From a virus, in the IMG/VR virus record IMGVR_UViG_3300045806_000080, positions 1 to 63,921 of that record: a stretch of 63,921 nt of DNA; one strand, 5' to 3'. Position numbers and translations under genes: made by a program. Below, one piece after another: positions 5,977 through 54,213 of this stretch (position 1 is the stretch's first letter; every line of letters starts with the position of its first letter). The notes beneath the pieces are model-generated. The model saw only the letters and a program-made list of their open reading frames with translations, searched no databases and had not been told where the DNA came from.

Positions 5977-6004
5977 TTGTGTCCCTAGCGTGTCAGTGTA
6001 CTGT
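5977..6004 (+). promoter_or_regulatory. Promoter with TGTCAGTGTA element in the spacer
   Basis: TTGTGT (5977-5982), a 16-bp spacer and TACTGT (5999-6004). The phage-wide element TGTCAGTGTA lies at 5991-6000, overlapping the spacer and the start of the -10. It would drive the DUF1599-like and primase genes. The predicted start (about 6011) falls inside the terminator stem that follows. Confidence 0.5.
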
Positions 6005-25265: not shown

Positions 25266-25317
25266 TGGTGGGCGGTGACGGGCTCGAACCGCCGACCCTC
25301 TCGGTGTAAACGAGGGC
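25266..25317 (-). other. attP core: 3' half of tRNA-Val(UAC)
   Basis: The - strand carries an anticodon loop TTTACAC (anticodon UAC), a T-arm with TTCGAGC and an acceptor strand ACCGCCC ending in ACCA: about 50 nt of a tRNA-Val 3' half. No 5' half is present, because integrase codons lie there. It abuts the int stop codon. This is the usual arrangement of a phage attachment core that restores the host tRNA after integration. Confidence 0.8.
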
Positions 25318-25322
25318 CGCCA

Positions 25323-26501
25323 TTATAAGTCTTTGATATTATTGACGTCGCCTGTCAAGTTCGGCCCCGTTCTTCGCGTTTTGTTCCGCTCAACCTGTGG
25401 CGAACCTGTGGCGGTCACTGTGTTGGGCCGCGCCGTGACCGCCGCGAGTACACCGCTTTGGTAGTCTGGGTGGTGGTGGCCGTACACATCCACGATCAGC
25501 TTAGGGGATACCCCGAAGAAGCCGGCGGCCTGGTAGATGTCGGCCCCGTTCTGCATCGCCCAGGTTATCGCTGTATGTCGGAGGGTGTGCTGGGTGACGT
25601 CTGCGAGCCCGGCGTCGGCCACCGCATTGCCGAACGCCTTCTTGATGCTGGCCACCGGCTGGTCGTCGAACTCGATCACGGAGTGCTTGCAGAGCCCCCG
25701 GTCCTTCCAACGCCGCATGTGCGCGAGGAGCCTGGGCGGTAGGCGGATGGTCGGCTGGAGCTTGTTCGTCCGGCGCTTGCCTTTGGGCTGCCGGTAGAAG
25801 ACGCCCCGCTCCAGATCGACGCGGCCCCTGCCCTCCTCTGGCTCGAACGACGCCGTGCAGATCGCCGAGGCGCGGGTCCCGGTGTAGAGCCCCACTAATA
25901 CAAAGCGTGCCACATGCCTCCGCATGCGCCGCTCGGTCAGGACCTCACGCTGCGGCTGACGGTAGCGCCAAGCCCCCCAGATCAGCCGGGCGGCCTCGGA
26001 CCGGGTGAGCCACCGCTCGCGCGGGATAGCCTTGTCTGGCATCTCGACGCGCGTCTCGTAGGTGCAGCGCCCCTGCTTCCAGTGGTAGCGGATCGCCGCC
26101 CGGAAGTCCTCAAGCTCGCGCCGCGCCGCCTGCTCGGACGTGCGTTGCGCGGCGTAGGCTCTGCACAGCTCGCCATTGACCTGGGCTAGTTTGTGGCTCC
26201 CGAAGAACTCGTTGAGGAAGCCGACGCGCTGAAGGAGCGCCCTCGGTCTCGCGACTTTCTTCGCCCCGACGTACAGATCGAGGACGTCGGAGACTTCGAC
26301 GGCGGCTGGGTCGCGGGTGTCGGTTGGCGGCGCGTGCTTCTTGCCGACGTACCGTGCGAGGCACTGCTCAGCTCGGCCAACTTCATCCGCAGCGCATCCT
26401 GTGCTTCTTTGGACGACCCCGTCCCGGATGATCCAGACTGCGGGGCGGCCCTCGCGGGCTGGACGGAGCCAGAGACGCGCTCCCTTGGCTTGGTTCGACA
26501 C
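25323..26501 (-). CDS. int: Tyrosine integrase
   Basis: A 392-aa protein. The C-terminal catalytic domain has Arg210 (LYTGTR), HTLRH (305-309), VYGHHHPDY with the His/His pair (342-343) and nucleophile Tyr347. The N-terminal ~60 residues would bind arm sites and the middle region (~70-150) is the core-binding SAM-like domain. It lies beside the tRNA-derived attP, so it should mediate site-specific integration. The 5' end overlaps the excisionase-like gene. Confidence 0.9.
   Translation of the reverse strand: MSNQAKGARLWLRPAREGRPAVWIIRDGVVQRSTGCAADEVGRAEQCLARYVGKKHAPPTDTRDPAAVEVSDVLDLYVGAKKVARPRALLQRVGFLNEFFGSHKLAQVNGELCRAYAAQRTSEQAARRELEDFRAAIRYHWKQGRCTYETRVEMPDKAIPRERWLTRSEAARLIWGAWRYRQPQREVLTERRMRRHVARFVLVGLYTGTRASAICTASFEPEEGRGRVDLERGVFYRQPKGKRRTNKLQPTIRLPPRLLAHMRRWKDRGLCKHSVIEFDDQPVASIKKAFGNAVADAGLADVTQHTLRHTAITWAMQNGADIYQAAGFFGVSPKLIVDVYGHHHPDYQSGVLAAVTARPNTVTATGSPQVERNKTRRTGPNLTGDVNNIKDL
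25394..25422 (+). repeat. Putative attP arm repeat 2
   Basis: Second copy of the 29-bp repeat, located inside the 3' end of int (coding for TVTATGSPQV on the - strand). One mismatch from 25198-25226. Confidence 0.65.
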
Positions 26502-44539: not shown

Positions 44540-44780
44540 CCAAGGTGGCCCTCGGCCCAGCATGCGGATCAGCGACATGCCCAGCTCTGTGAGGGCGACG
44601 GGCCGATATAGCACCAGACGCCCCCTCACAACAGTGCGTCAGGCTATCAGTGGCACATATGCTAGAGTCTAATTTCAAGACTTTGTATTGTATCCGTGGG
44701 GAAATTAGCCAAAATTTCATATGGGACCATGGACCCACCCACCCCTATTGAAATCTTTCCCCCCCTCGGCCCCCTGCCTC

Positions 44781-44848
44781 CCCAATAAAAGAATGCTTCT
44801 CTATAGTAGCCCTCCCCAATAAAAGAATGCTTCTCTATAGTAGCCCTC
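44781..44848. repeat. 34-bp tandem direct repeat
   Basis: Two perfect copies, period 34 bp (44781-44814 and 44815-44848). Each contains AATAAAAGAATGCTTCTCT with an AGAA-TGC-TTCT inverted core. Possible paired protein-binding sites. Confidence 0.8.
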
Positions 44849-48503: not shown

Positions 48504-48519
48504 GATTAACGGGTTAATC
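48504..48519. promoter_or_regulatory. GATTAAC palindrome 7
   Basis: GATTAACGGGTTAATC (centre GG), then GAGAGGATCAG; 14 nt before ATG 48534. Confidence 0.7.
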
Positions 48520-48533
48520 GAGAGGATCAGATC

Positions 48534-48926
48534 ATGGGACAGCGACATCACAACGCGATCGGCATCGCCGGGGGCGCGTGCAACCCGCTCGCCATATCAA
48601 ACGCAATCGCTCGTGGATGCCACGAGATCATGGACAACCCGGCGGGCTACGCAGGCACCGACGCCATCACCAGCGACCCGGCGATCAAGCTGATGACGAG
48701 CCAGCTCGCCTACATCACAGGCGTCTGGTCCGGCGTGTCGAACTTCTCGAAGGGCGCGGACTTCCGCGACTGCCTGACGGCGTGTCGCAACGAGGTCGCG
48801 AGCGAGCCGACCAAGAGCGACCTCATGCATGAGGCGGCCGAGGCGCGAGGCGTGCCGGTCGTGGACATCAGGATGATCCAGTTCGACGGCGCGGACCTGA
48901 GTGGCTTCCCGACGATCGACCCGTGA
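48534..48926 (+). CDS. Hypothetical early protein
   Basis: A 130-aa protein (MGQRHHNAIGIAGGACNPLA...). Mixed alpha/beta, with an acidic C-terminal part (MIQFDGADLSGFPTIDP). No family recognised. Confidence 0.6.
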   Translation: MGQRHHNAIGIAGGACNPLAISNAIARGCHEIMDNPAGYAGTDAITSDPAIKLMTSQLAYITGVWSGVSNFSKGADFRDCLTACRNEVASEPTKSDLMHEAAEARGVPVVDIRMIQFDGADLSGFPTIDP

Positions 48927-48938
48927 CGTCAACCGCAG

Positions 48939-48948
48939 TACACTGACA
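48939..48948 (+). promoter_or_regulatory. TACACTGACA element before the PEP-CTERM gene
   Basis: TACACTGACATC, 29 nt before ATG 48977; the GAAGGATCAG leader follows. It gives the PEP-CTERM gene its own control site inside the early region. Confidence 0.5.
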
Positions 48949-48976
48949 TCAAGTCAGGACTGGAAGGATCAGCACC

Positions 48977-49504
48977 ATGAAACGATACCTCCTTGCCGCC
49001 ACCATCCTCGCGGCCCTCTCGACGCCGAGCGCGGCCTCGCTCGTCAGCTTCACGTTCGCCGGGCCGTTCGGCTCGGGCTCGATCAACGGACGCGTGGTCG
49101 TGGATGTCGAGGGCGGGCTCGCCACGTCAGGCACCGCCACCATGCAGGGCTGGGGCATCGACGGCACGCAGACGCTGGCGCTCGTGACGCCGGCCGGCGC
49201 GGTCTACCGCTCGGGCAACGGCACCGACATCTGGGACGGCGACAACCGCGTGCCGATCACATGGGGCGGCATCGTGTTCGGAACCAACGCGGCCACGTCC
49301 GGGTCCGGTGGTTACAACCTCGGCATATGGGCCGAGACGCCGGCCACCTACCGCGGCTTCGCGTCTGGACCTGGCCTCTGGTCGTACACTGGCGAGCTGT
49401 CGGTCAACCCGATCCCCGAGCTGTCGACATGGGCGATGTTCGCCATCGGCGCGGCGGCGATCGCGTTCACCGGCTATCGCAAGCCCGCGCGCTACGCCCT
49501 CTGA
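48977..49504 (+). CDS. PEP-CTERM-type secreted protein
   Basis: A 175-aa protein. An N-terminal signal peptide (MKRYLLAATILAALSTPSAA) precedes a beta-rich body full of Gly/Thr. The C-terminus is IPELSTWAMF, a hydrophobic helix (AIGAAAIAFTG) and a basic end (YRKPAR), i.e. the PEP-CTERM layout with Leu instead of the second Pro. In bacteria exosortases process such proteins for surface or matrix export. On a temperate phage this looks like a lysogenic-conversion gene. Confidence 0.75.
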   Translation: MKRYLLAATILAALSTPSAASLVSFTFAGPFGSGSINGRVVVDVEGGLATSGTATMQGWGIDGTQTLALVTPAGAVYRSGNGTDIWDGDNRVPITWGGIVFGTNAATSGSGGYNLGIWAETPATYRGFASGPGLWSYTGELSVNPIPELSTWAMFAIGAAAIAFTGYRKPARYAL

Positions 49505-49905: not shown

Positions 49906-49914
49906 GGGGCTGGC

Positions 49915-50235
49915 GTGGACCATCTGTTCAATTGCTGCACGGGCCTGGGCGGGGCGGGCATGGACCATCTGTTCAACTGCTGCACTGACGGGGCCGAGCC
50001 TGACTGGTCTACCTACAAGTCGCTGGAGGTCGGTGGCTGTGTGACTGAGCGCGAGCCCAACGGCGACACGTTCACGGTCGGCGGCAAGGACGACGACGAG
50101 GCCGAGTTCTGGACGGTCTACGGCCGGTTCGCCGATGGCGACTGCGAGGCCATCACGGATTGCAAGACGCGTCAGATCGCCGACCTCGTCCTGTCGGCGT
50201 TCACGATCGTTTCCCGTCTCAAGGCGGAGGTTTGA
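49915..50235 (+). CDS. Hypothetical protein with duplicated N-terminus
   Basis: A 106-aa product from GTG 49915. MDHLFNCCT occurs twice, at residues 1-9 and 16-24, from a nearly exact 25-bp DNA duplication; ATG 49960 is the alternative start. An acidic C-terminal domain follows (TVGGKDDDEAEFWTVYGRFA). Confidence 0.6.
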   Translation: MDHLFNCCTGLGGAGMDHLFNCCTDGAEPDWSTYKSLEVGGCVTEREPNGDTFTVGGKDDDEAEFWTVYGRFADGDCEAITDCKTRQIADLVLSAFTIVSRLKAEV

Positions 50236-53115: not shown

Positions 53116-54213
53116 ATGGCTAAGGCGATCATCACCACTGGCGAGCCCACCGTCAACATCCCGCAACTCAAGCGGATCATCCGCGACGACATCATCGAGG
53201 ACAACGACGTCGGGTTCTTCTACGGCGAGGCCGGCATCGGCAAGACCTACGCCATCCGGCAGGCGTGCGAAGATGCTGGCGCGTTCCTCTGCGAGATCAG
53301 GCTCGGGCAGTACGACAGCGTCGACCTCCGCGGCTTCCCAGGCGTCGATGCGCTGAACAACACGACCTGCTGGTATCCTCCCAAGACGCTGCCGATCGTG
53401 GGCACGCCGGGCTGGCCGACCGACAAGCCGATCGTCATCTTCTACGACGAGGCGACCAGCGCGACGATGCCGGTCTGGGCCGTCATGTACCAGGCGTTGC
53501 AGGACGGCGGGATCGGCGAGCACAAGTTCATGCCGAACGTCCGTCAGTGCGCGGCTGGCAACCTCGACACTGACCGTGGCGTGGTCAACCGGACGCCGGC
53601 CCCGGTGTCCAACCGCTGCCTCAACTTCCGTGTGGCGCTCGACATCAGCGCGTGGATCAAGTACATGGCCGCGCTCGGCACGCCCCCGCTCTACCTCGCC
53701 TACCACGGCTGGCGCGGCAAGGAGGGCAAGAACATCCTCCTGAGCTGGGACCCGGACGCTGCCGTGCAGCCCAAGTCCTACGGCTCTCCGCGGTCCTGGG
53801 CACGGGCGATCCGCAAGCACGTCAAGTACGCCAACCGCGACCCCGACCACGCGTTCATCGCCATGGCGGCCTCGATCGGCGAGGGGCTGGCGCTCGACTT
53901 CCGGGGCTTCGAGCAGATTTACGAGAAGGTGCTGCGCCCCGAGGACATCATCAAGAACCCGAAGGGCGTCAAGCTGCCCGAGGACGAGAGCCTGATTTAC
54001 GCCACGGCTGTCAGTGTGAGCGGTGCAATGACCTTGACTACGGTCAAGCCACTGCATACGTTTCTCACTCGGCTCGACCCTGAATACTGTATAATGGCCT
54101 GGCAATTGGCTGTGGCTCGGGACCCGGCGATCTACATGGCCGACGAGTTCCTCGACGTCAGCCAGCGTTACAAGGCGATCTTCGACGTGGCGACGTCCAG
54201 GAGGGCTACGTGA
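53116..54213 (+). CDS. MoxR-like AAA+ ATPase
   Basis: A 365-aa protein. Walker A GEAGIGKT (37-44), Walker B VIFYDE (107-112), sensor-like NVRQCAAGNLD and a lid domain in the C-terminal third. MoxR ATPases remodel partner proteins, commonly together with a VWA protein such as the one at 55893. An HNH gene follows directly (GTGA overlap). Palindrome 10 and AAGGATCAG precede the start. Confidence 0.75.
   Translation: MAKAIITTGEPTVNIPQLKRIIRDDIIEDNDVGFFYGEAGIGKTYAIRQACEDAGAFLCEIRLGQYDSVDLRGFPGVDALNNTTCWYPPKTLPIVGTPGWPTDKPIVIFYDEATSATMPVWAVMYQALQDGGIGEHKFMPNVRQCAAGNLDTDRGVVNRTPAPVSNRCLNFRVALDISAWIKYMAALGTPPLYLAYHGWRGKEGKNILLSWDPDAAVQPKSYGSPRSWARAIRKHVKYANRDPDHAFIAMAASIGEGLALDFRGFEQIYEKVLRPEDIIKNPKGVKLPEDESLIYATAVSVSGAMTLTTVKPLHTFLTRLDPEYCIMAWQLAVARDPAIYMADEFLDVSQRYKAIFDVATSRRAT

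Follow-up and report, generated by a model that had tools for sequence, protein, structure and literature searches.

Does a phage feed its own protein into the exosortase sorting system of its host? The question is raised by a short gene, P0001, in an IMG/VR virus record, complete at 63,921 bases, which was analysed at its full length and is referred to here as the window. An earlier note had read positions 48939 to 49504 as the gene of a secreted PEP-CTERM-like protein. The end at 49504 was correct, whereas 48939 is the position of a repeated site, TACACTGACA, and the reading frame begins further downstream. The features of the locus are:

48505 to 48521, strand not assigned: palindrome ATTAACGGGTTAAT upstream of the ORF at 48534, candidate control site of a unit that may include the P0001 gene
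48534 to 48926, plus strand: preceding ORF of 130 amino acids, the end of which resembles residues 38-72 of the phage ATPase family phrog_1297
48939 to 48948, plus strand: TACACTGACA, candidate operator, one of 13 exact copies in the window
48962 to 48969, plus strand: ribosome-binding region GGAAGGAT of the P0001 gene, as found before other genes of the phage (repeat family D10)
48977 to 49504, plus strand: P0001 coding sequence (ATG 48977, TGA 49504), 175 amino acids, predicted to be exported, with a PEP-CTERM-like tail
48977 to 49039, plus strand: signal-peptide-like N-terminus MKRYLLAATILAALSTPSAAS, residues 1-21, by inspection and hydropathy
49040 to 49414, plus strand: body, residues 22-146, Cys-free, rich in Thr, Ser and Gly, without a convincing relative
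49415 to 49501, plus strand: sorting-signal-like tail, residues 147-175, with PELSTWAM, a hydrophobic helix and a basic end

Substrates of the PEP-CTERM/EpsH system have an N-terminal signal, a Cys-poor, Thr/Ser/Asn-rich body without homologs, and a motif followed by a helix and a basic end (PMC1569441). In composition and architecture P0001 fits these substrates as described by Haft et al. 2006 (PMC1569441; TIGR02595, PF07589). Its N-terminus, MKRYLLAATILAALSTPSAA, resembles a signal peptide on inspection. By hydropathy, the strongest hydrophobic segment outside the N-terminus is the tail and the interior of the body has no equal, leaving an N-terminal signal without another membrane segment, as in PEP-CTERM proteins. 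The Thr/Ser-rich body contains no Cys and no Lys, 11.2% Thr and 8% Ser. In the C-terminus, PELSTWAMFAIGAAAIAFTGYRKPARYAL, residues 149-163 have a hydropathy of 1.7 and are followed by the basic end GYRKPARYAL, which places helix and basic cluster at the extreme C-terminus. P0001 differs from the known substrates in having PEL for the near-invariant Pro-Glu-Pro, in being carried by a phage and in failing the curated models.

When P0001 was searched with PF07589 (Pfam) and TIGR02595, no match was obtained, because the near-invariant second proline, the third residue of the motif, is a leucine. NF035944 (PEPxxWA-CTERM), which P0001 resembles in its PE-x-x-x-W-A core and its length, gave no match to P0001 either, whereas sister phage proteins reached 22-54 bits (cut-off 35). 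The best NCBIfam match of the C-terminus was NF038126 (FxDxF family PEP-CTERM). It covered residues 129-169 only (41 C-terminal residues; 8.9e-6), left the body unmatched and scored 26 bits, below the curated cut-off of 50 bits; the phage families L035 and L033 matched the same model over nearly their full length with 46-47 bits. A tail HMM built from 14 other tails, with P0001 left out, scored P0001 at 39 bits and no other ORF of the window at E≤10. The HMM check proposed in the earlier note came out divided, with NF038126 (below its cut-off) and our own tail HMM in favour and PF07589 and TIGR02595 against.

The tail of another phage contig, L116 (PEPSTWAMLLIGAAAMAFAGMRRKSPRYAL), is identical to the P0001 tail in 21 of 29 residues and has the canonical PEP. 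An alignment of 13 members of the L116 family shows eight with P at the third residue of the motif, three with L and two with I; PEP is found in L116 and L095, PEL in L035 and L034, and PEI in L026 and L032. Since this position varies inside one homologous phage family, PEL counts among the natural forms of the signal. The residues P, E, S, T, W, A and M of the motif are invariant across the 13 members, partly by selection, as M and W were included in some of the search patterns. We conclude from these sequence comparisons that P0001 has a divergent tail of the PEP-CTERM type. The label PEP-CTERM-like was chosen because the architecture fits but the protein lies outside the curated family definition. 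The exosortase-substrate-like architecture proposed earlier was borne out by the signal-like start, the C-terminal NF038126 match, the tail HMM and the composition.

No relative of the whole protein was found in phages, plasmids, the PDB, IMG/VR or GTDB genomes, and a search of 385 alphaproteobacterial genomes returned weak matches only, one of which, in the exosortase-positive genome G464, is a true PEP-CTERM tail. The single-sequence AlphaFold prediction of P0001 had a pLDDT of 32 and was useless as a model. That Pfam, PHROG, plasmid and named-phage searches gave no relative would suit a spurious ORF or a chance resemblance; this is very improbable in view of the three-part architecture, the two independent HMM matches and the phage-like codon bias. 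The GC contents at the three codon positions are 0.58/0.61/0.90, the last within the range of the phage (0.85-0.94 in six of seven phage genes). By these features the ORF is judged real. Since its third-position GC and its ribosome-binding region match those of the phage's genes, P0001 is a resident phage gene and not a fresh insertion. The gene sits in the plus strand replication-side region of the window, outside the structural operon.

HMO-2011 and Pseudomonas phage Rollin are relatives of the podovirus-type group in which portal, terminase and capsid place the window phage (portal 24-36% identical). Related phages of the group had no such gene in the stretches examined. Two features bear on the lifestyle:

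25323 to 26501, minus strand: tyrosine integrase of 392 amino acids (phrog_1, 1.8e-24)
25266 to 25312, minus strand: attP core, with 43 nt identical to the 3' half of some tRNA-Val(TAC) genes

The attP, CGTTTACACCGAGAGGGTCGGCGGTTCGAGCCCGTCACCGCCCACCA (25312-25266, minus strand), lies ten bases past the integrase stop, and the window has the integrase with adjacent attP of a temperate tailed phage. The earlier description as temperate agrees with these findings, from which the phage is predicted to integrate at tRNA-Val(TAC). Compared with the integrases of Rhizobium phage 16-3 and of a Sinorhizobium phage, that of the window shows 43-44% identity, a range that widens to 38-45% when the plasmid relatives are included. 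All of the latter come from alphaproteobacteria, among them Bradyrhizobium, Methylobacterium and Mesorhizobium; the relative on a Mesorhizobium plasmid is followed by an attP-like site with 90% identity. The viral contig L102 encodes an integrase 52% identical to that of the window, nearly the same attP and a PEP-CTERM gene of its own. Judged by the integrase relatives, the host is probably an alphaproteobacterium. Of 79 alphaproteobacterial genomes tested, three had an exact attB, all three of them exosortase-positive; as positives had been deliberately favoured in this set, the finding indicates compatibility and not association.

Host assignment was also attempted with the terminase, which led to one MAG contig. 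This 52-kb contig, JAGVSR010000100.1 of the Alphaproteobacteria MAG THP_Bin_1, is an end-to-end relative of the window phage with no visible host flank and no PEP-CTERM gene. No other contig related to the phage was found in a bacterial genome, and this one was rejected as proof of the host, being phage from end to end as far as could be judged. The MAG has no real exosortase; its exosortase-like match was FtsW by sequence inspection.

The earlier note had seen in TACACTGACA a site belonging to this gene, as in a moron. The site is not the gene's alone, since 13 exact copies are spread over the window (0.04 expected), among them those at 5991, 13178, 16601, 25097, 40500, 48939 and 59420. Seven of the 13 lie within 60 bases of listed gene starts or overlap them, three along the gene and four against it. 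Because it occurs phage-wide and in both orientations to the nearest gene, TACACTGACA is more like a genome-wide repeated operator than a private promoter, and we regard it as a candidate stoperator-like element. The stretches of related phages that were examined do not contain it. Between 47.5 and 51 kb, neither a sigma-70-like promoter nor a terminator was found. A palindrome, ATTAACNNGTTAAT, recurs at about ten positions from 44.9 to 57.6 kb (44888, 45855, 47232, 47537, 48072, 48505, 49746, 52049, 53076 and 57592), only in the plus strand replication-side region, and is possibly an early operator or promoter element. Since one site stands upstream of the ORF at 48534-48926, the P0001 gene may be the second in a two-gene unit. 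The end of this plus-strand ORF resembles the ATPase family encoded at 53116-54213, and it may be a fragment of a duplicated ATPase gene. The window also has two tandem duplications, a 45-nt unit encoding MDHLFNCCT, present twice at 49906-49995, and a perfect 34-nt unit, present twice at 44777-44844.

Phage-borne examples had been called unusual. This is wrong for uncultivated viruses, although a search of named phage records gave no relative; no report of phage-encoded PEP-CTERM proteins was found in the open-access literature searched. In IMG/VR, the pattern PE[x]STWAM was found in 18 contigs, 17 of them with C-terminal tails, and PEPSTWA[LMV] in more than 120 stretches at the least. The 80 PEPSTWA loci examined among the matches listed were nearly all C-terminal tails of secreted proteins, and their bodies fall into three main families of 21, 20 and 18 loci plus smaller ones. 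Several of these phage proteins exceed the curated cut-offs of PF07589 and TIGR02595. The adjoining genes encode terminase, portal, major head protein, helicase, RecE and endolysin, and 63 of 162 tagged loci, which partly repeat the same contigs and mostly come from fragmentary records, stand beside relatives of ten phage reference proteins. Contamination by host chromosomes was rejected as the source of the matches because of these neighbours and the viral contigs without exosortase.

One family, C1, comprises about 50 loci in IMG/VR at ≥53% identity. The 52-kb viral contig IMGVR_UViG_3300021475_000019 carries two C1-family PEP-CTERM genes. A C1 model from 13 sequences (pLDDT 68) predicts a beta-rich domain between two helices, and its best PDB matches include CBM35 modules (E ≥ 3e-3, TM about 0.35), which makes carbohydrate binding no more than a lead. 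In the 385 alphaproteobacterial genomes, the pattern PE[x]STWAM had no match. The body of the main phage family was not found in these genomes, in which only a tail matched; this, like the phage-like third-position GC and ribosome-binding region of the P0001 gene, argues against P0001 being a recently captured host gene that travels without benefit to the phage. Such a passenger is improbable, even though the body is a singleton and no relative of the window phage carries the gene.

In one group of these phages, in which terminase, portal and capsid proteins are largely 72-100% identical, the PEP-CTERM gene is flanked by a scaffold-like ORF on one side and, on the other, by a 65-residue ORF that lies upstream of the capsid gene. 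Phages L026, L032, L034 and L035 have a C1 body in this slot, L060, L091, L099, L113, L114 and L115 a C2 body, and L093 and L123 one of a third family. When the three slot bodies and the P0001 body were compared as profiles, they were unrelated (best hhalign probability 18%). In these sequences, the slot keeps the tail constant while the cargo is exchanged. The position within a structural operon fits lytic expression better than lysogenic conversion, which argues that at least some tagged proteins act in the lytic phase. P0001 itself might then be a late product that coats the cell or its debris, so that progeny avoid re-adsorption or escape the exopolysaccharide. Such an effect would be comparable to that of the receptor-blocking lipoprotein of T5. 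The location between portal/scaffold-like and capsid genes in the L026/L034/L035 group supports such a role, but the window gene lies on the replication side and not in the structural operon, and we consider a lytic function of P0001 rather unlikely.

No exosortase was found in the window phage and its relatives or in 20 PEP-CTERM phage records, and a profile-guided scan of IMG/VR, whose sensitivity for exosortases is not established, returned none. Since no exosortase was found in the viral contigs, the tagged phage proteins look like substrates for a host enzyme, and the viruses probably borrow the sorting enzyme of their hosts. The earlier note had made its reading depend on exosortases in the hosts. 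EpsH was detected in 51 of 385 sampled Alphaproteobacteria, a set enriched for positives, and the reading was not refuted at the level of this class of probable hosts. Ten of these exosortases were seen to have the conserved Cys/Arg/His columns, and 32 of 99 genomes from the family of one phage-bearing MAG contain an exosortase.

The remaining 334 of the 385 genomes gave no EpsH match at the threshold used. This would suit a rival reading in which the tail is only a single-pass inner-membrane anchor and P0001 a periplasmic, membrane-tethered factor for exclusion or lysis timing that is not processed by an exosortase. A helix with a basic end is enough for anchoring, and the curated PEP motif is incomplete in P0001. 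For an anchor, however, the conservation of PE-x-S-T-W-A-M, invariant in the 13 family members (partly by selection), would be superfluous, and the motif is kept on unrelated bodies. We view a mere anchor as unlikely.

Our best explanation, to which we give about an even chance, is that the window belongs to a temperate phage which infects an alphaproteobacterium and has its integration site at tRNA-Val(TAC), and that P0001, small and secreted, bears an exosortase-type tail and is sorted by the host enzyme. P0001 would cross the inner membrane by Sec, and the tail helix would hold it there with the basic end in the cytoplasm. The host exosortase (EpsH/Xrt) would cleave it at the PEL/PEP site and the product would reach the outer surface or the exopolysaccharide, the phage supplying the substrate only and the host the sorting machine. 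Export and tail recognition are predicted from the architecture and the family evidence. Once released, P0001 may alter the infected cell or lysogen at its surface; hindered adsorption of other phages or a changed matrix would be the most likely outcome, and superinfection exclusion is a predicted function. Against this explanation stand the failure of P0001 with PF07589 and TIGR02595, its score below the NF038126 cut-off and a body without relatives or a usable model. The MAG that holds the one related contig but no real exosortase, the place of the genes in the structural operon of another phage group and the lack of such a gene in the examined stretches of related phages also count against it.

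Phage surface proteins of lysogenic conversion and superinfection exclusion are phage-encoded, exported and accessory, as P0001 would be. In contrast to these, P0001 would take the host exosortase route and not the lipoprotein or integral membrane route. More generally, soil phages of exosortase-bearing bacteria may share a widespread class of cargo, interchangeable surface proteins whose bodies are swapped in a fixed slot while the exosortase tail is kept, which use the host's exopolysaccharide sorting and never encode the enzyme. P0001 would be a divergent member from a temperate phage. We hold this wider proposal to be evenly balanced.

PEP-CTERM proteins and exosortases are linked to the formation of exopolysaccharide, flocs or biofilms, and to our knowledge no role has been established for most of the substrates. 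Should phages acquire them repeatedly and swap them, exosortase surface sorting would become an arena of conflict between phage and host or between phages. This, if true, would give a large set of unexplained proteins testable functions, namely superinfection exclusion, a block of adsorption or a change of the matrix.
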